Source: Roseospirillum parvum (GTDB taxonomy: Bacteria > Pseudomonadota > Alphaproteobacteria > Rhodospirillales > Rhodospirillaceae). From it: a DNA stretch of 64,000 bases. This document shows positions 54,845-63,885 of this stretch, piece after piece. The notes under the pieces were generated by a model. That model had not been told where the DNA came from. It saw nothing but the letters and a program-made list of their open reading frames with translations, and searched no databases. Position 1 is the stretch's first letter, and every line of letters starts with the position of its first letter. The stretch lies in assembly GCF_900100455.1 (NCBI RefSeq), contig NZ_FNCV01000007.1, positions 62,001 through 126,000 of the forward strand. Reading direction: 5' to 3'. The position numbers and the translations under genes were made by a program.

Positions 54845-55804
54845 ATGAAGCTTCTGCGCCACGCCCTGGCAGCCCTTGTGCTGCTTTCCACGCCGGCCCT
54901 GGCCGAGCAACAGCTTTCGGTCGCCACCGGCGGTACCGGCGGCGTCTACTACCCCTACGGCGGCGGTTTGGCCGAGCTGATCACCAAGTACGTCGACGAC
55001 GCCAGCGCGGTGGCCGAGGTGACCGGCGCCTCGGTCGAGAACATGGGGCTGGTTTCGCGCCGCGACAGCGACCTCGCCCTGGCCCTGGCCGACACCGTCT
55101 ATGCCGGGGTGATGGGCATCGGCCGCTTCGAGGACCGCAAGCTCGACAACGTGGTGGCCCTGGGCTCGGTCTATCCCAACGCCGTGCAGATCGTCACCCT
55201 GAAGGACAGCGGCATCACCTCGCTGGCCGATCTCAAGGGCAAGCGGGTGTCGGTCGGCGCCCCGGGCAGCGGCACCGAGGTCAGCGCCAAGACCCTGCTT
55301 GAGGCCAACGGCATCAGCTACGACGACTTCGAGCCCCAGCGCCTGAACTTCAACGAGACCGCCGACGCCCTGCGCGACGGCGACATCGACGCCGGGTTCT
55401 GGAGCGTCGGCCCGCCGACCAGCTCGATCATCAACCTCGCCACCACCCGCGACATCGCCCTGGTGGCGATCAGCGACGACGAGATCGCCAAGGCCAAGCA
55501 GGCCGAGCCGGTGTTCGCCGCCTATACCCTGAAGGCCGGCATCTACGAGGGGGTGGCCAACCCGGTCAACACCATCTCCACCCCCAACGTGCTGATCGCA
55601 AACGCCGAGATGGACGAGGAACTGGCCTACCGGATCACCAAGGTGCTGTTCGAGCATATCGCCGAGCTGCGCGCCATCCACCCGGCGGCCAACGACACCA
55701 CCATCGAGTTCTCGCTGGGCGCCACCCCGGTGCCGCTGCACCCCGGCGCCATCCGCTTCTACGAGGAAGCCGGGGCCACCGTGCCCGACCACCTGAAGCC
55801 GTGA
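54845..55804 (+). CDS. TAXI-family TRAP transporter substrate-binding protein
   Basis: 319 aa with GGGAG upstream. Signal peptide to about residue 20 (VLLSTPALAEQ). LSVATGGTGGVYYPYGGGLA is the TAXI-family signature, and LADLKGKRVSVGAPGSGTEVSA is the hinge region. Periplasmic binding protein that delivers an organic solute (glutamate/2-oxoglutarate-like in characterised cases) to the fused permease two genes on. Its stop overlaps the DUF1850 start as GTGA. Confidence 0.92.
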   Translation: MKLLRHALAALVLLSTPALAEQQLSVATGGTGGVYYPYGGGLAELITKYVDDASAVAEVTGASVENMGLVSRRDSDLALALADTVYAGVMGIGRFEDRKLDNVVALGSVYPNAVQIVTLKDSGITSLADLKGKRVSVGAPGSGTEVSAKTLLEANGISYDDFEPQRLNFNETADALRDGDIDAGFWSVGPPTSSIINLATTRDIALVAISDDEIAKAKQAEPVFAAYTLKAGIYEGVANPVNTISTPNVLIANAEMDEELAYRITKVLFEHIAELRAIHPAANDTTIEFSLGATPVPLHPGAIRFYEEAGATVPDHLKP

Positions 55805-56307
55805 GGCCACGGCCCCGCCCGGGGCGACGGCTGATCGCCGCCGCCCTGGGTCTGCCACTGGTCGCCTGCGCCGCCGCCCCGCCGCCGAATCGCCTGGAGG
55901 CGGTGACTCCTGACGGCCGTCTGGTCGGCGCCGTCACCGTGCCCCGGGGCAGTGGCTGGTGCCTGGACTGGAACCATTCGGTGACCGGCGACCCGGTGGC
56001 CGACTGCTACCTGAACGACGGCGGCCGGATGGTCCTGAGCCACGCCTTCCAGCCCGACTTCGCGGCCGGCCTGGGGCACTTCCCCGGGCGCGGCGTGTTC
56101 AGGCCGGGCCGCGGCGACGGCTACCTGATCGACGCCATCGACGAGCCGGTGCCCGGCAACGCCTATCGCCTGCGCGTCGGCGCGCCAGCCGTCGACCACC
56201 GCATCATCACCGACGACGGCCAGCGCCTGCCCCTGTCGGCCCGGGTGGCCGGCCAGCCGGTGATCCTGCGCCTTGTTCCCGCCCCCTCATCCCAGGACCT
56301 TCCATGA
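55801..56307 (+). CDS. DUF1850 lipoprotein-like component of the TAXI TRAP operon
   Basis: 168 aa from a GTG. A signal with a likely lipobox (LPLVAC, Cys near residue 23). The DUF1850 core is WCLDWNHSVTGDPVADCYLND, with RGDGYLIDAIDEPVPG. Such proteins are found with TAXI TRAP permeases, sometimes fused to them; function unknown. Overlaps its neighbours by 4 bp on both sides, so all three genes are translationally coupled. Confidence 0.8.
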   Translation: MRPRPRPGRRLIAAALGLPLVACAAAPPPNRLEAVTPDGRLVGAVTVPRGSGWCLDWNHSVTGDPVADCYLNDGGRMVLSHAFQPDFAAGLGHFPGRGVFRPGRGDGYLIDAIDEPVPGNAYRLRVGAPAVDHRIITDDGQRLPLSARVAGQPVILRLVPAPSSQDLP

Positions 56308-58343
56308 GCCAGGCCTCGCCCGACGCCACCGTCGACATCCTGCCCGATCCGCCGCACCATCCGCGCCCGGTGCTGTGGCTCATCTCGACGGTCGCCGTGG
56401 CGCTGTCGCTGTTCCAGATGTACGGGGCGGGGATCGAGCCGCTGGGCCTGTTCTACCAGCGCGGCATCCACCTCGCCTTCATCATGGTGCTGGCCTTTCT
56501 GGTCTTCCCGCTGCGCCGCCGGCGCGGCTGGCTGAGCTGGCTGGTCGATCTGGCCTTCCTCGGCGGGGCGGTGCTCAGTGGCTTCTATCTGACCTACTAT
56601 CTGGACGACATCTTCAACCGGGCCGGCTTCTGGACGACCACCGACGTGGTGGTCGGGGCCATTGCCGTGCTCACCCTGCTCGAGGCCAGCCGGCGCGCCA
56701 TCGGCCTGGGCATGACCCTGATCGGGGTGGCCGCCATTCTCTATGCCCTGGCCGGGCCGCGCGGCGCCCTGCCCTGGCTGGGCGAGCTGCTGCCCGGCAT
56801 CCTGGCCCACCGGGGCAACGACCTGGACCGCCTGATCGGCCAGCTCTACCTGGGGCAGGAGGGGATCTACGGCCTGCCGCTGGGCGTCGCCGCCACCTAC
56901 ATCTTCGTTTTCGTGCTGTTCGGCGCCTTCCTGGAGGTGACCGGGGCCGGGCGCTTTTTCATCGATCTGGCCTACGCCGCCACCGGCAAGCGCAAGGGCG
57001 GACCGGCCAAGGCCGCCGTGCTGGCCTCGGCCGGCATGGGCTCGATCAGCGGCTCGGCGATCGCCAACGTGGTCACCACCGGGGCCTTCACCATTCCCCT
57101 GATGAAGCGCCTGGGCTACCGCCGCGCCCAGGCCGGGGGGATCGAGGCCGCCGCCTCGACCGGCGGCCAGATCACCCCGCCGCTGATGGGCGCCGGGGCC
57201 TTTCTGATCTCGGAATACACCAACGTGCCGTATCTCGAGATCGTGCTGGTTTCCATCTTCCCGGCCATTCTGTACCTGGGCACGGTCTACCTTTTGGTCC
57301 ACATCGCCGCCCTCAAGCAGGGCATGAGCGGGCTGCCACCCGAGGAGTTGCCGAGCATCAAGAAGGTGCTGGCCGAGGGCTGGCAGTTCCTGGTCCCGCT
57401 GGGGGTGCTGGTCTACCTGCTGGTGATGAACCTGTCGCCCATGCGGGTCGGCTTCTGGGCCATCCTCTCGGTGGCCGGGGTGGCGCTGGCCCGCTGGCTG
57501 CTGTGGCGACTGTTCATCGCCCCGCGCCACCAGAAAACCGCCGACACCCCCGACCTCCCCGACTGGAGCACCGCCCTGCTGGCCGGCGGGCGACTGGTGC
57601 TGAAGGCGCTCGAGGTCGGGGCGCGCAACGCCATCGCGGTGAGCGTGGCCTGCGCGGTGGCCGGCATCATCGTCGGCGTGGTCGGGCTGACCGGGCTGGG
57701 GCTGAAGTTCTCCTCGATGATGATCGCCTTCTCCGGCGGCAACATCGTGCTGGCCCTGATCCTGGTTCTGCTGGCCAGTCTGGTGCTCGGCATGGGGCTG
57801 CCGGTGACCGCCTCCTACATCGTGCTGGTGGTGCTGGTCGGCCCCACCCTGCACGCCGACTTCGGCATCCCGCTCTTGATCGCCCATCTGGTGGTCTTCT
57901 GGTACTCGCAGGACAGCAACGTCACCCCGCCCATTGCCCTGGCCGGCTTCGCCGGTGCCGCCATCGCCGGGGCCAGCCCCATGAAGACCAGCATCGAGGC
58001 CTGGAAGTTCGCCAAGGGGCTGTACCTGATCCCGCTGTTCATGGTCTTCAACCCGGTCATCATCACCGGCGGGCCGCTGCCCCTGGTGCTATGGACCGGA
58101 GCCATCGCGATCCTCGCCCTGGTCGCCTTCGCGGCGACGCTGGAAGGCCACCTGTTCACCCGCATGGACCCGCTGTCGCGGCTGCTGGTGATTCCCGGGG
58201 TGATCGCCCTGTTCCAGCCCGACATCACCATCGAGGCGATCGGCGCCGCCGGGCTGCTCGCCGTGCTGGGGCTGAACGCCCTGCTGGCGCGGCGGGAGGC
58301 GACCGGGCGGGTGCCGGACAAGACCCGCCCGGCGGGTCGGTGA
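56304..58343 (+). CDS. TRAP transporter fused DctQ-DctM permease (TAXI type)
   Basis: 679 aa from the ATG at 56304. About five N-terminal helices form the DctQ-like part, then the DctM core: GSISGSAIANVVTTGAFTIP, AAASTGGQITPPLMGAGAFL, LVLGMGLPVTASYIVL and WYSQDSNVTPPIALAGFAGA. These are the two discontinuous-helix signatures of the TRAP-T 4TM/12TM fusion. Sodium-coupled uptake driven by the TAXI binding protein. Confidence 0.93.
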   Translation: MSQASPDATVDILPDPPHHPRPVLWLISTVAVALSLFQMYGAGIEPLGLFYQRGIHLAFIMVLAFLVFPLRRRRGWLSWLVDLAFLGGAVLSGFYLTYYLDDIFNRAGFWTTTDVVVGAIAVLTLLEASRRAIGLGMTLIGVAAILYALAGPRGALPWLGELLPGILAHRGNDLDRLIGQLYLGQEGIYGLPLGVAATYIFVFVLFGAFLEVTGAGRFFIDLAYAATGKRKGGPAKAAVLASAGMGSISGSAIANVVTTGAFTIPLMKRLGYRRAQAGGIEAAASTGGQITPPLMGAGAFLISEYTNVPYLEIVLVSIFPAILYLGTVYLLVHIAALKQGMSGLPPEELPSIKKVLAEGWQFLVPLGVLVYLLVMNLSPMRVGFWAILSVAGVALARWLLWRLFIAPRHQKTADTPDLPDWSTALLAGGRLVLKALEVGARNAIAVSVACAVAGIIVGVVGLTGLGLKFSSMMIAFSGGNIVLALILVLLASLVLGMGLPVTASYIVLVVLVGPTLHADFGIPLLIAHLVVFWYSQDSNVTPPIALAGFAGAAIAGASPMKTSIEAWKFAKGLYLIPLFMVFNPVIITGGPLPLVLWTGAIAILALVAFAATLEGHLFTRMDPLSRLLVIPGVIALFQPDITIEAIGAAGLLAVLGLNALLARREATGRVPDKTRPAGR

Positions 58344-58505: not shown

Positions 58506-58551
58506 GCGCCATCCCACGACATATTTTTCCACCACATACCGGAGGCTCTGC

Positions 58552-59778
58552 ATGACAGAGAAGAACCCCGAGAAAGGGTATGTCGCCCTGCTCGGCTGGT
58601 CGCTGGGCGCCATCGACGCCGCCGAACGCTTCGACCGCCGCTACATCGTCGTCGCCCCGGAGTGGGCCGAGGCCTACTGCCAGGAAAACGACATCCCCCA
58701 CATCCCCTGGAACTTCGAGCGCCTCAACGACCGCTCCATGGAGATCGCCGAAACCCTGAAGGAGCGCGGCGTCGATGTGGCCATCCCGCTGTTCGAGGAA
58801 ACCGTCGAGTGGGCCGGCGCCATCAACGCCGTGTTGCAGGCCAACCCGCGCCTGCACGGCCAGGCCATCCTGTTCCGCGACAAGGCGCTGATGAAGCGCC
58901 GGGCCCAGTTGGGCGGCATTCGGGTCGGCATCTTCGAGGAGGCCCACGACCGGGGCGACATCATCCGCTTCCTGAAGCGGGTCAGCCAGACCCTGCTCAA
59001 GCTGGACGGCGACCCGGCCGACCCGATCCACGTCAAGGCCTTCGACAAGGCCGGCTGCCTGGGTCACCGGGTGATCCGCGAGCCGCAGGACATCGACCTG
59101 ATCCCCGACGAGGAATTCCCGGTGCTGATGGAAAGCCACCTGGACGGCTGGGAATTCGCCTGCGAGGTGTGGATCCACGACGGCAAGATCCAGTTTCTCA
59201 ACATCTCTGAATACGTCACCCTGGGCTATTCGGTGTTCGTCCCCGCCTCGCCGGCGCTGGAGGCCTGGCGGCCCCGGGTCGAGCAGGAAATCGAGAAGCT
59301 GATCAAGACCTTCGACATCGAGCACGGGTTCATCCACCCGGAATACTTCGTGACCAGCGACGGCACCATGTACTTCGGCGAGGTCGCCTTCCGGCCGCCC
59401 GGTTTCAAGGTCTTCGAGCTTCTCGAACGGGTCTACGGCTTCAACGCCTATCAGGCGTTGATCGTCTGCTTCGACCCCAAGTCCACCGAGGAAGAGGTGC
59501 GTGCCTTCTTCCCGCGCGAGGTGGTCGATGCCGACGGGTATGCCGGCTGCTTCGGGGTCTACCCGCGCCAGCGCGTGGTCACCGACCTGGAGGTGCCCGA
59601 GGAGACCGAGAATCACCCCTACTTCGAATCCCACGAGCTGACCGCGCCCTCCGAAACCAAGGTGACCAAGCGTACCGCCTTCGGCACCCACTGGGGGCTG
59701 GTCTATTTCCAGGGCGACGACCCGGACACCCTGCACGGCCTGCTGAAGCGCCAGGAGGCGTTGGACTTCTATCGCTGA
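58552..59778 (+). CDS. ATP-grasp ligase of unknown substrate
   Basis: 408 aa from the ATG at 58552 with GGAGG upstream. An N-terminal Rossmann-like pre-domain (YVALLGWSLGAIDAAERF, IPLFEETVEWAGAINAVL) precedes the ATP-grasp fold. Lys162 (HVKAFDKAG) is the nucleotide lysine, MESHLDGWEFACEVWI follows, and IHPEYFVTSDG with FGEVAFRPPG (Glu277) supplies metal ligands, though the usual Asn of the E-x-N motif is not evident. Family members join a carboxylate to an amine using ATP. The unassigned gene downstream and the putrescine genes suggest a polyamine or peptide conjugate. Confidence 0.8.
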   Translation: MTEKNPEKGYVALLGWSLGAIDAAERFDRRYIVVAPEWAEAYCQENDIPHIPWNFERLNDRSMEIAETLKERGVDVAIPLFEETVEWAGAINAVLQANPRLHGQAILFRDKALMKRRAQLGGIRVGIFEEAHDRGDIIRFLKRVSQTLLKLDGDPADPIHVKAFDKAGCLGHRVIREPQDIDLIPDEEFPVLMESHLDGWEFACEVWIHDGKIQFLNISEYVTLGYSVFVPASPALEAWRPRVEQEIEKLIKTFDIEHGFIHPEYFVTSDGTMYFGEVAFRPPGFKVFELLERVYGFNAYQALIVCFDPKSTEEEVRAFFPREVVDADGYAGCFGVYPRQRVVTDLEVPEETENHPYFESHELTAPSETKVTKRTAFGTHWGLVYFQGDDPDTLHGLLKRQEALDFYR

Positions 59779-59886
59779 GCCTGAAATCGCGGGAGCCGGG
59801 GGGTGTTTTGCCCCCGGCCCCGCCTTCGCGCTACCATGCCCGCTGTTCCGGGGCGCCGCTGGCGCCCACAGCCTGGAAAGCCCCCG

Positions 59887-61908
59887 ATGTCGTCGACACC
59901 AACCCCACCCGGGCCAACCCCGCCCGGGAGCCCGCCGGCCCCCGCGGCCGAGGCTCCCTCGGCCGATCTCCTCGCGCTGGCCGCCAAGTTCGACCGGGCG
60001 CTGGACAAGCTGGCCCAGACCTCGGCCTTCGCCAAGCAGACCACCCGCGGCCCGGTGCTCGACATCGCCTGCCGCCTACTGGCCCGCCCCGGCGGCGCGG
60101 CCCAACTGGTCGAGCGGGCCGAACGCCTGGAAGCGGCCGGGGTCTTCCACGGCACCGACTGGGCGCAGCCGGAAATCCTCCAGCCGTCGCTGGCCACCGG
60201 CACCCTGACCCACGGCGACCGCCCCACCGCCACCCTGGAAATGCTCAGCGAGTTGCGCCTGCTGGCGGTGGCCCACCGGCACTTCTTCCACCCGCGCATT
60301 TCCTCCGAGCAGGCCCAGCACTTCCTGAGCCAGCTTCTGGCGCTCAACCTCAACCGCCTGTTCGGGGCGCCAAGCGAGGCCGAGCGCCAGCACGCCACCC
60401 AGGCCACGGCGACCCGCAACGTGTTTGCCCACATGGTGGAACGCATCGGCTTTGCCGAGGTGTTCGGCCAACTGGGCGAGGAGATCGAGCGCATCCTGGC
60501 CCAGCGGCCGATCATGGTCGACGACGTCAAGCTGATGGTGACCCGCATCGCCGCCTGCCTGAACGACCCGGAGATCGACAGCGGGGCCTCCGGCCTGGGC
60601 GCCGCCCGGCTGGTCAGCGCCCTGTTCGGGCCGACCACCGCCTGCCGCGAGGACCCGGGGCTCGAGGTCTACGCCGAGCGCCTGGACACCCTGGACGACA
60701 GCGCCCTGACGCAGGAGGCCCGCGCCTTCGCCCGGGCCATGCATGACACCGGGCTGGTGTCGCCCTACCACGCCGTCTTCCTGCGCCGCGTCAACGGACC
60801 CGGGGCCGATCTGGTGGCCCAGGCGCTGGGCCTCAGCAGCACCGGGCGCGAGGCCTTTTCCTGCTATCCGGGGCTGGTCGAAAGCCTGATCGAGGCGGCC
60901 ATCACGCCGGACACGGCGCAGGCCATCCTCGGCCTCGCCCTGTTGCTGGAGCGCGGCCTGCTGTTCGACCCGGCCATCGGCCCGTCGCTGTGGGGGCACA
61001 TCGGCCTCACGCCCTGCCCGGCCGCCGCCCAGGCCCTGGCCACCGCCTTCGGCCCGGCCCTGCCGCCGGCCACCCTGCTGCTGGCCGGCACCTTGAGCGT
61101 GCTCGGCCAGCCGCTGGGCATCGGGCAGGGCAACAACCCCACCTGTCAGGCGGCGCGGGCGCTGTCCATGTGGGCCCTGGCGGCGCCCGACTACCTGTTG
61201 CACCTGCTCGCCCGGGCGGCGCGCGACGATGACATCGTCATGGTCTTCGAGGGGCAACGGCTGTCCTCGGCCGCCCTGCGCAGCGGTCTGGCCAGCCAGC
61301 CGCCGATGGACGTGGACCCGGTGTCGGTGGTCCTGGTCCCCCATCTCGACCGCATCTACATGGAAATGGGCCGCCTGTGCGCCGGCCGCCCGGGCGACCC
61401 CCACGCCTGGGTGAACAGCGAGATGCACGGCTGGTGGGTGGGCCGCGACACCGCCCTGGCGGTGGACCTGCCGGGCGGCACCCTGGCCGGCGACTACGCC
61501 ACCTTCGTGCGCCGCTTCTTCGCCCACTACCACCCCCTGCACAACGGCAATGCCCCGGTCACCCACCCCCAACCGGCGGGCATCGCGGTGACCGACAGCC
61601 TGGGCCGCTTCATCGGCTGGCACGCGGTGACCATCCTGCGCGTCGGCCTGGGGCCGAAGGGCGACATGCGCCTGTACTTCTTCAATCCCAACTGCGACGG
61701 CGGCCAGGACTGGGGCCAGGGGGTGGTGGTTTCGACCGAGGGCAACGGCGAGTGGTTCGGCGAATCCTCGCTGCCGTTCGAATCCTTCGCCAGCCGCCTC
61801 TACCTGTACCATTGCGACGCCTGCGACGAGGGCGACCTGGCCGGCGTGGACGCCGAGACGGTGGCCGGCATCGAGGCCATGGCCCGCGCCACCTGGGCGG
61901 CACGCTGA
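59887..61908 (+). CDS. Unassigned 673-aa protein with papain-like active-site pattern
   Basis: Not recognised as a named family. From the ATG at 59887 a Pro-rich leader (1-45) precedes a mostly helical middle. The C-terminal third contains GQGNNPTCQAARALSMW with Gln414 and Cys420 exactly six residues apart as in papain, GWHAVTIL (His579) and FFNPNCDGG (Asn600). Order and spacing fit a cysteine peptidase, amidase or transglutaminase fold, by pattern only. No signal peptide, so probably cytoplasmic. It begins 108 bp after the ATP-grasp gene across a GCCGGGGG hairpin and converges on aguB. Confidence 0.6.
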   Translation: MSSTPTPPGPTPPGSPPAPAAEAPSADLLALAAKFDRALDKLAQTSAFAKQTTRGPVLDIACRLLARPGGAAQLVERAERLEAAGVFHGTDWAQPEILQPSLATGTLTHGDRPTATLEMLSELRLLAVAHRHFFHPRISSEQAQHFLSQLLALNLNRLFGAPSEAERQHATQATATRNVFAHMVERIGFAEVFGQLGEEIERILAQRPIMVDDVKLMVTRIAACLNDPEIDSGASGLGAARLVSALFGPTTACREDPGLEVYAERLDTLDDSALTQEARAFARAMHDTGLVSPYHAVFLRRVNGPGADLVAQALGLSSTGREAFSCYPGLVESLIEAAITPDTAQAILGLALLLERGLLFDPAIGPSLWGHIGLTPCPAAAQALATAFGPALPPATLLLAGTLSVLGQPLGIGQGNNPTCQAARALSMWALAAPDYLLHLLARAARDDDIVMVFEGQRLSSAALRSGLASQPPMDVDPVSVVLVPHLDRIYMEMGRLCAGRPGDPHAWVNSEMHGWWVGRDTALAVDLPGGTLAGDYATFVRRFFAHYHPLHNGNAPVTHPQPAGIAVTDSLGRFIGWHAVTILRVGLGPKGDMRLYFFNPNCDGGQDWGQGVVVSTEGNGEWFGESSLPFESFASRLYLYHCDACDEGDLAGVDAETVAGIEAMARATWAAR

Positions 61909-61939
61909 GGGGCCGAGGGGATCATCACCGGGGGGCGGA

Positions 61940-62821
61940 TCAGCCCCCCAGGGGCGTCACCCCGTCCAGGGTGCCGAGCGGGCCGTAAAGCTCCGGCCGG
62001 CGGTCGCGCAACATCCCCCAGCCGCCCCGGAAGCGGGCCACCTGGTCCAGGTCCAGGGTGGCGGTGATGACCGTCTCCTCGTCCCGTCCGGCTTCGGCCA
62101 GCAGGGCGCCGGTGTGGTCGGTGATGAACGACGAGCCGTAGAAGGTGAGCGAACAGCTCGCCCCGTCCTCGCTGCCGATACGGTTCGAGGCCACCACCGG
62201 CAGGATGTTGCTCGCCGCGTGGCCCTGCATGGCGCGCCGCCAGTGGGGCTGGCTGTCGTAGCCGGGATCGGTCGGCTCGCTGCCGATGGCGGTCGGGTAG
62301 AGCATCACCTCGGCCCCCATCAGGGCGCAGGCGCGGGCCGTTTCCGGGAACCACTGGTCCCAGCAGATGCCCACCCCGAGCCGTCCGCAGGCGGTGTCCC
62401 AGACCTTGAAGCCGGTGTCGCCGGGGCTGAAGTAGTACTTCTCCTCGTAGCCCGGGCCTTGCGGGATGTGGCTCTTGCGGTAGGTGTCGAGCACCCGGCC
62501 GTCGGCGTCGATCATGACCAGGGAGTTGTAGTAGGTGTTGTTGGCCCGCTCGAAAAAGGACAGGGGCAGGACCACCGACAGCTCGCGGGCCAGGGCGGCG
62601 AAGCGGGCGATCACCGGGTTGTCGGCCTTGGGGCGGGCCCAGGCGAAGTATTCGGGGTCCTGGTCCTTGCAGAAGTAGGGTCCCTCGAACAGTTCCTGGA
62701 GCAGGATCAGCCCGGCCCCCTTGCCGGCGGCCCGGCGAACCAGGGCCTCGGCGCGGTCCAGGTTGGCGGCGAGGTCGGGCGTGCAGGCCATCTGGGTGGC
62801 GGCAACGGTCAGCGTGCGCAT
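61940..62821 (-). CDS. aguB: N-carbamoylputrescine amidase
   Basis: 293 aa from the ATG at 62821 (AAGGA 10 bp upstream; the longer frame uses a TTG). Nitrilase fold with Glu in LLQELFEGPYF, Lys in TYRKSHIPQGPGYEEKYYF and Cys in GVGICWDQWFPE. The pattern is characteristic of AguB: it converts N-carbamoylputrescine to putrescine, CO2 and ammonia. It begins 26 bp after aguA ends. Confidence 0.93.
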   Translation of the reverse strand: MRTLTVAATQMACTPDLAANLDRAEALVRRAAGKGAGLILLQELFEGPYFCKDQDPEYFAWARPKADNPVIARFAALARELSVVLPLSFFERANNTYYNSLVMIDADGRVLDTYRKSHIPQGPGYEEKYYFSPGDTGFKVWDTACGRLGVGICWDQWFPETARACALMGAEVMLYPTAIGSEPTDPGYDSQPHWRRAMQGHAASNILPVVASNRIGSEDGASCSLTFYGSSFITDHTGALLAEAGRDEETVITATLDLDQVARFRGGWGMLRDRRPELYGPLGTLDGVTPLGG

Positions 62822-62847
62822 GGTGGTGGTGTCCTTCGAAAAGATGC

Positions 62848-63885
62848 TCAAACCCGGGGCTGCTGCTGGGTGATGCAGTGGATGTTGCCGCCGCCATGGG
62901 CGACCACCCGGCTGTCCACCTGGACCACCTGGCGGCCGGGGAAGGCGGCGCCGATCACCTCGGCGGCGGGATCGTCGTTGGGGTCGCCGAAGCGGGGCAC
63001 GATCACCCCCCCGTTGCAGATGTAGAAGTTGATGTAGCTCAGGGACATGCGCCCGCTGGCCGCGGCCCCCTCGGGATACTCGGTGCGAATCGCCGGCTGG
63101 GGCACCTCGATCACCTGGAGACGGCGTCCCCGGGCGTCGGTGGCGGCCTTCAGCAGGTCGCGGTTGTGGGCCATGCGCCGGGTGTTCTCGTCGGCCGGCG
63201 CGCCGGCCGAGCCGATCAGCACCACCCCCGGCGCGGCGAAGGCGCAGACGTTGTCGATGTGGCCGTCGGTGTCGTCGTTCTCCAGTCCCTCATCAAGCCA
63301 GATCACCGTGTCCACGGCGAGGTACTCGGCCAGGAAGCGCTCGATGTCGGCGACCTCGAGGTGCGGGTTGCGGTTGTCGTTGAGCAGGCATTCCCGGTTG
63401 GTGATCAGGGTGCCCTCGCCATCGACATGGATCGAGCCGCCCTCCAGGATCATCGGCCCGGGGAAGCGGCGCGCCCCGGCGGCGGCAATCACGGCGCGGC
63501 CGGCCCGGGCGTCGGCGCCATAGTCCTCGATGAAGTGGCCCCAGCCGTTGAAGCCCCAGTCCACCGCCGCCAGACCGCCCGGCCCGACCAGGAAGCCGGG
63601 GCCGTTGTCGCGCAGCCAACTGTCATCCAGCGGGCATTCGACAAGCTCGATGTTGTCGCTGCCCAGAAGGTCGCGCGCCCCGCCGATCAGCTCCGGCGGG
63701 ACCAGCACGCTGACCGGCTCGAAGGCGGCGATGGCCTGGGCCACCCGGGCATGGGCGGCCCGCGCCTCGGCCATCCAGCGGTCGGAGTAGGTGGCCGGAT
63801 TGCACGGCCAGCTCATCCAGGTGCGGGTGTGGGGTTCGAACTCGCCGGGCATGCGATAACCCAGGTCGCGCGGGGTCTCGATCAT
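62848..63885 (-). CDS. aguA: Agmatine deiminase
   Basis: 345 aa. Porphyromonas-type deiminase fold: RTWMSWPCNP, DDSWLRDNGPGFLV, LEGGSIHVDGEGT, DDTDGHIDNVC and the catalytic Cys in HGGGNIHCITQQ. It converts agmatine to N-carbamoylputrescine, the substrate of AguB downstream. No arginine decarboxylase is in the window. Confidence 0.95.
   Translation of the reverse strand: MIETPRDLGYRMPGEFEPHTRTWMSWPCNPATYSDRWMAEARAAHARVAQAIAAFEPVSVLVPPELIGGARDLLGSDNIELVECPLDDSWLRDNGPGFLVGPGGLAAVDWGFNGWGHFIEDYGADARAGRAVIAAAGARRFPGPMILEGGSIHVDGEGTLITNRECLLNDNRNPHLEVADIERFLAEYLAVDTVIWLDEGLENDDTDGHIDNVCAFAAPGVVLIGSAGAPADENTRRMAHNRDLLKAATDARGRRLQVIEVPQPAIRTEYPEGAAASGRMSLSYINFYICNGGVIVPRFGDPNDDPAAEVIGAAFPGRQVVQVDSRVVAHGGGNIHCITQQQPRV

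Follow-up and report, generated by a model that had tools for sequence, protein, structure and literature searches.

We analyzed a 64,000-nucleotide stretch of the Roseospirillum parvum genome (hereafter the window; contig NZ_FNCV01000007.1, positions 62,001 to 126,000 of the forward strand), in which two adjacent plus-strand genes encode an adenosine triphosphate (ATP)-grasp ligase and a papain-like enzyme, referred to below as the partner. The ligase gene (58552..59778, 408 amino acids) was recognized by its open reading frame (ORF), by a fold search and by the catalytic positions it has kept, and GGAGG at 58541..58545 of the same strand, read directly from the letters, is a likely ribosome-binding site 6 bases ahead of the ATG at 58552. 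The partner gene (59887..61908, 673 amino acids) probably starts at the ATG at 59887, within a frame that is open from 59803. ORF and family searches showed that the two genes are codirectional and converge on aguB (61940-62851, minus strand; TIGR03381 at 464 bits, above its cut-off of 410) and aguA (62848-63885, minus strand; PF04371, 380 bits; TIGR03380, 331 bits, which is below the equivalog cut-off of 382). This arrangement agrees in position and strand with an initial annotation, made from the letters of the window, which had described an ATP-grasp ligase beside a protein with a Gln-Cys-His-Asn pattern, both facing aguB-aguA.

The only Pfam match of the window ligase at E <= 1 was ATP-grasp_4, with 24.7 bits just under the cut-off of 27; the same model was matched at E <= 0.01 by 31 of the 33 members of the ligase family. 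Its AlphaFold2 model (mean predicted local distance difference test score, pLDDT, 85) retrieved RizA (4.8e-24) and BL00235 (3.6e-21) as the top PDB matches in Foldseek, followed by a glycinamide ribonucleotide synthetase structure, BacD/YwfE and PurK-type enzymes. Structural alignment with VIA-align gave a Z of 29.0 for BL00235 (root-mean-square deviation, rmsd, 4.8; 369 aligned residues) and of 28.8 for RizA (rmsd 5.0; 364 aligned), and in both programs the ATP-grasp fold spans the whole chain. RizA and BL00235 are ATP-grasp L-amino acid ligases (EC 6.3.2.28), and the window ligase shares with them this whole-chain fold as well as the later catalytic stretch (H-x-E ... DG ... E ... R), but just 16-17% identity over the structural alignment; it also differs from them in having a consistent papain-like partner. 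All 33 ligases agree at the twelve catalytic or motif positions that were chosen, among them Lys, Glu, His-x-Glu, Asp, Glu and Arg residues, which we take to have ATP/metal and catalytic roles. Judging from the predicted structure, activity of the L-amino acid ligase type is expected. Such ligases make dipeptides via an acyl phosphate, as stated in a passage of PMC9321006.

The model of the partner (mean pLDDT 92) consists of about 380 helical residues followed by a mixed domain. The all-helical N-terminal region (model residues 25-406; 59962..61107, plus strand) is without an assigned fold, and the papain/calpain-like catalytic region was delimited by structural alignment to model residues 380-643 (61027..61818, plus strand). 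A Gln-Cys-His-Asn tetrad lies in the last third of the protein and does not vary among the 55 aligned sequences, one of which is the window protein. Its members, all encoded on the plus strand, are Q413 (61126..61128), which would hold the oxyanion position by analogy with papain; C419 (61144..61146), the predicted catalytic Cys and first residue of helix 419-431; H578 (61621..61623), the predicted catalytic His within strand 574-587; and N599 (61684..61686), the predicted catalytic Asn directly after strand 593-598. Papain shows the same placement of Cys, His and Asn relative to helix and strands, and the distance from Gln to Cys is 6 residues in both proteins. With VIA-align, residues 380-643 matched the calpain-3 core with a Z of 8.8 (rmsd 4.4, 206 aligned), and the partner matched staphopain with a Z of 8.1 (rmsd 3.8, 137 aligned), cathepsins scoring lower; according to the guidance for this program, top Z scores of 7-8 are usual where no clear match exists. 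The tetrad residues, their order and their secondary-structure placement are common to the partner and the calpain and staphopain cores, from which the partner differs as a bacterial, ligase-paired protein with its long helical region ahead of the catalytic part. Our confidence in the papain assignment is raised because the invariance of the tetrad and the placement of Cys, His and Asn are independent of the fold score. The window partner matched no Pfam or NCBIfam family at E <= 1, PDB sequence searches with it returned nothing meaningful, and Foldseek with its full model gave no match at E <= 0.001. Structure prediction, which the initial annotation had proposed as a check on both proteins, placed the ligase in the L-amino acid ligase fold; for the partner, it gave calpain-3 as the best alignment and no significant Foldseek match.

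The two genes were then followed across three overlapping genome samples, comprising 61 relatives, 385 genomes of the class and 398 genomes of the phylum, the union of which contains 16 carriers of the pair. Among the relatives, the partner occurs in four genomes and the full ligase in the same four; in the class sample, both were found in the same 4 of 385 genomes, and 11 of the 398 phylum genomes have the partner, again with the full ligase in the same 11. A scan of genome contigs confirmed 76 loci, a number that is an undercount because the scan started from just two short peptide patterns, derived from three sequences. At 51 of these loci the genes stand in tandem with the ligase first; two are divergent, two convergent, in one a ligase fragment lies about 8 kb off, and 20 have no ligase on the available stretch. 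The genomes of 16 of these 20 loci were searched (L065, L077, L083 and L084 were left out), and each of the 16 encodes the ligase elsewhere, although in G806 it is present only as fragments at the ends of contigs. When the partner is assumed to begin at its most upstream possible start, 46 of the 51 tandem gaps are at most 98 bases; these include three short overlaps and one of -631, taken as an artefact of an over-long ORF. Copy numbers are unequal in some genomes, with three partner and two ligase genes in G500 and G593 and one partner and two ligase genes in G482 and G727, and single copies of either gene sometimes stand alone. The initial annotation had made its proposal depend on the co-occurrence of the two genes in other genomes, and the pair was indeed found to be conserved across the samples.

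Further comparison of the two families revealed that their divergence is coupled. Pairwise distances of ligase and partner correlate over 46 loci (rho 0.71, with 0 of 1000 permutations as high) and also with one locus per lineage (rho 0.66, n = 26); the ligase is the more conserved of the two, with a mean distance of 0.19 versus 0.40. In the ligase tree, 14 of whose 28 inner branches are well supported, Actinomycetota appear in two places, Neopusillimonas lies inside alphaproteobacterial rows, and a long-branch metagenome-assembled genome (MAG) of Dehalococcoidia pairs with Caenispirillum. These placements in a sequence tree therefore point to horizontal transfer of the pair among lineages. 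Among plasmids, the two genes were found side by side in 1 of 72,556 records, a 1.8 Mb Halomonas replicon, and 15 further records contain only distant ligase-like matches, all below 60% identity and at 22-28% among the matches listed. Not found apart in the searched genomes, the two genes seem to have spread across Proteobacteria, Actinobacteria and a Chloroflexota lineage with their catalytic residues kept. Since they stay together, move and keep these residues, it should be possible to test an entire chemical conversion with the two proteins in purified form.

By comparison, then, the two genes occur in the same genomes, mostly as a ligase-first tandem and with conserved catalytic positions. 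The reading we prefer, which we hold to be a little short of an even chance, is that they form a self-contained, horizontally spread two-enzyme unit, in which an amide is formed and then cut or transferred, and that this unit serves a small peptide- or amide-type metabolite in salt-adapted bacteria. Going by folds and motifs, the ligase would activate a carboxylate as an acyl-phosphate with ATP and join it to an amine, and the Cys-His-Asn residues of the partner may attack the resulting amide, either by hydrolysis (turnover) or by acyl transfer (a second synthetic step). That the product would be a metabolite of salt-adapted bacteria is suggested by genome association alone. The mutual dependence of the two genes favors successive steps or a complex, and the unequal copy numbers disfavor a fixed complex.

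The association with salt was assessed by means of ectoine synthase, which all 16 carriers possess, compared with 6 of the 57 genomes of the order that lack the pair (p = 1.4e-11); for the family of the window alone, the counts are 4/4 and 4/33 (p = 0.001). In the phylum background, 24 of 145 genomes are above the cut-off, or 18 of 139 when the six known carriers are removed, the 145 being presumed to be a subset of the 398 searched for the pair. The p-values of these associations are too small because of shared ancestry. Salt follows the pair better than polyamine genes do. Named carriers include Marinobacter, Alcanivorax, Salinisphaera, Marinospirillum, Roseinatronobacter and Halomonas, which are known from marine, salt or soda-lake habitats. 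Rhodospira, Roseospira and Caenispirillum are also among the named carriers; the direction of the association agrees with a survey of Rhodospirillaceae, a portion of which reports that marine and halophilic members (these three genera and others) make ectoine and freshwater ones do not (PMC7824335). If the salt link is true, the pair would represent a new route of osmoadaptation in marine, soda-lake and oil-degrading bacteria, and it would give a function to a papain-like family without a Pfam model. As a separate observation, the genome of the window (G000) contains two ectoine synthase-like genes, both outside the window (C18:393300-393674 and 166188-166550), the second being far lower-scoring; second, lower-scoring copies are also present in G015 and G611.

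Several observations weigh against the preferred reading. The papain-fold match of the partner (Z 8.8) is near chance level for such models, and none of the 55 partner members matched a papain or calpain Pfam family at E <= 0.1. Weak ligase-like matches without a partner were seen in G023 of the relatives sample (3e-6) and, as a partial match, in G709 of the phylum sample (5e-8). What is linked to salt is a set of lineages, not a function: the controls lack genus-by-genus matching, carriers of the same genus are non-independent, ectoine synthase also occurs without the pair in the six order non-carriers mentioned above (among them G012, which shares its genus with carrier G029), and for the carriers Gordonia, Williamsia and Pseudonocardia a saline habitat is not obvious. 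Moreover, Marinobacter carries extra partner genes, without an adjacent ligase, beside polyamine-uptake-like genes.

Two more specific accounts of how the enzymes might cooperate were considered, each of them possible without being probable. The first is a two-step synthesis, in which the ligase would form an amide and the partner would complete the product as a transpeptidase, an acyltransferase or an ammonia-donating amidase. Neither full gene was found alone in the searched samples, a pattern easier to reconcile with successive steps than with an optional turnover, and the ligase-first tandem at 51 of 76 loci points the same way, as does the papain-fold BtrH family, named a possible transacylase in peptide-synthesis operons in part of PMC2922099; however, copy numbers are unequal in the four genomes listed above, some copies stand alone, and no transferase family was matched. 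The second, likewise tentative, is a make-and-break cycle, in which the ligase would store a solute or conjugate and the partner would hydrolyse it once the need has passed, by analogy with the aminopeptidase of N-acetylglutaminylglutamine amide (NAGGN) or with glutathionylspermidine synthetase and its amidase. It is consistent with the hydrolase-type tetrad, intact in 55 of 55 sequences, with the salt association of the pair, and with the NAGGN osmolyte operon of Pseudomonas aeruginosa, which has a glutamyl aminopeptidase gene according to a section of PMC8070244. A breaking enzyme would be expected to be dispensable in some genomes, yet no genome with a full ligase but without the partner was found in the searched samples.

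Both analogies were examined at the level of protein families. Glutathionylspermidine synthetase is of the ATP-grasp kind. Its family (which we take to be PF03738) was unmatched, the only model found being ATP-grasp_4, both for the window ligase (E <= 1) and for the 33 members (E <= 0.01), and the CHAP amidase family (presumably PF05257) was not matched by any of the 55 partner members (E <= 0.1). The pairing of a ligase with a papain fold is known from glutathionylspermidine metabolism, and the present proteins, as far as family models can tell, lie outside both of those sequence families, in line with the initial annotation, which had suggested that the pair may be analogous but unrelated to that system. 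The glutathionylspermidine synthetase/amidase of Escherichia coli (PDB 2IO7) and trypanothione synthetase-amidase resemble the pair in joining a synthetase with a papain-like amidase, of the CHAP type according to part of PMC10318531; the window system differs in having two separate genes and a calpain/staphopain-like partner with a large helical region. The NAGGN operon (asnO-ngg-aminopeptidase) is likewise a small operon with a peptidase gene, and its product is a peptide osmolyte, but its asparagine synthase, GNAT acetyltransferase and glutamyl aminopeptidase, as given in the same section of PMC8070244, differ from the families of the pair. Neither window protein matched asparagine synthase-like, GNAT or aminopeptidase families of Pfam or NCBIfam at E <= 1. 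The initial annotation had also named the pair as the likeliest undescribed system of the window; our searches of 5.39 million open papers turned up no description of this combination, which a survey of ATP-grasp amidoligases (Iyer et al. 2009) may nevertheless mention.

A bolder version of the preferred reading, which we regard as rather doubtful, holds that these two genes make up an entire mobile pathway. Its product would be a compatible solute of the peptide or amide type that has yet to be described, or else a peptide tag of proteins needed under salt, with the ligase building the compound and a new papain-fold family finishing or recycling it. One candidate product is N-carbamoyl-glutamine amide; this solute is known, and in 2005 its enzymes were described as unexplored. 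A solute listed earlier has since been assigned to asnO-ngg, as described in a part of PMC8070244, and a pathway for an unassigned solute is therefore plausible, without this identifying the product.

It is unlikely that the pair acts in protein modification, with the ligase adding amino acids to a protein and the partner removing them while its helical N-terminal region binds the protein. This region of about 380 residues has strongly conserved stretches and, within the full-model search, gave weak matches to helical-repeat proteins (beta-catenin, importins), and papain-like cluster I contains deconjugating enzymes, as noted in part of PMC10318531. The helical-repeat matches are, however, all non-significant, the ligase is nearest to small-molecule L-amino acid ligases, and no conserved third gene is located nearby. 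In an all-against-all ORF comparison of the 76 loci and the window, which carry 35 lineage labels, no third family beyond the pair's own frames was found in more than 9 of the 35 labels, the widest being an ABC ATPase with 9; clusters 2-7, 9 and 10 lie inside the pair genes, except for 3 of the 16 members of cluster 5.

Still less likely is a polyamine reading, in which the conjugate made and broken by the pair would contain putrescine, agmatine or spermidine. The initial annotation had raised putrescine and agmatine because aguBA adjoins the pair in the window, and this link has so far received no support. At the other 76 loci, no AguA- or AguB-like ORF was found by the pair (E <= 1e-20, 60% coverage; flanks of up to 10 kb, many of them shorter), and the aguB gene of carriers G029 and G032 is some 81 kb distant from the pair or on another contig. 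Nor does aguB track the pair when scored at the curated family cut-off: the counts above this cut-off, carriers versus non-carriers, are 4/16 and 13/57 overall (p = 1.0), 3/4 and 13/57 within the order (p = 0.052), and 3/4 and 13/33 within the window's family (p = 0.30). In each of the nine carriers outside the class, the best aguB-like match reaches 261-296 bits, below the cut-off of 410, and under a laxer threshold the counts become 13/16 and 13/57 (p = 3.4e-5); since the 57 controls include no relatives of these nine carriers from other classes, this excess may reflect clade alone. The polyamine pathway is not our preferred reading because of the absence of agu genes near the other 76 pairs and the failure of aguB to follow the pair at its cut-off; it is kept as a rival because the lower aguB threshold favors carriers and because of the gene neighborhood in Marinobacter.

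In that genus, a ligase-less partner paralogue lies beside potFGHI-like genes (L069, L070, L073, L075 and L087) and/or puuA/puuC-like genes (L073, L075, L078, L087 and L095), and the pot-gene arrangement with a ligase-less partner also occurs in L134 and L136. These family assignments were checked on one or two examples, in which PotF, PotG and PuuC were the best matches, yet below equivalog cut-offs, PotG was above the potA subfamily cut-off, and PuuA was nearly tied with ordinary glutamine synthetase; the PuuB label of a Marinobacter neighbor gene was not confirmed by the family check. The pot/puu neighborhood fits the polyamine idea but is confined to one group (Marinobacter-type), so that it reads as the inheritance of one genus, and the partner copies concerned have no adjacent ligase. 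At two of these loci (L073:6021-11965 and L134:3941-9870), the ligase-less partner ORF opens 3 bases past the end of potI and may belong to the potFGHI-like operon.

A defense or mobile-element role was rejected, as neither protein matched a PADLOC model at E <= 1 and no phage or viral relatives of the partner were found, with 0 matches among 50,697 phage records (searched with the partner only) and no confirmed relative in viral contigs scanned by two short peptide patterns.

Neighboring genes were also evaluated as a guide to function, and the ABC ATPase (9 of 35 labels), BCCT transporters (near 4 of 76 loci) and a TAXI gene (at the window and in Neopusillimonas) were too few to carry weight. 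The TAXI solute-binding gene near the window pair belongs to a TAXI-family TRAP transporter set (solute-binding protein, DUF1850 protein and fused permease; 54845-58343, plus strand), which lies upstream of the ligase at a distance of about 200 bases, with an AT-rich stretch in the gap. BCCT-type (betaine/choline) genes are located near a stand-alone ligase copy (L130:3526-5145) and near an Alcanivorax pair (L027:12819-14870). In addition, a Rhodobacteraceae MAG has a DmdA-like gene (dimethylsulfoniopropionate demethylase model, just below the cut-off) and an enoyl-CoA hydratase gene near the pair (L053:5161-7540), and clustered relatives of these two genes are present on the Natronohydrobacter locus.

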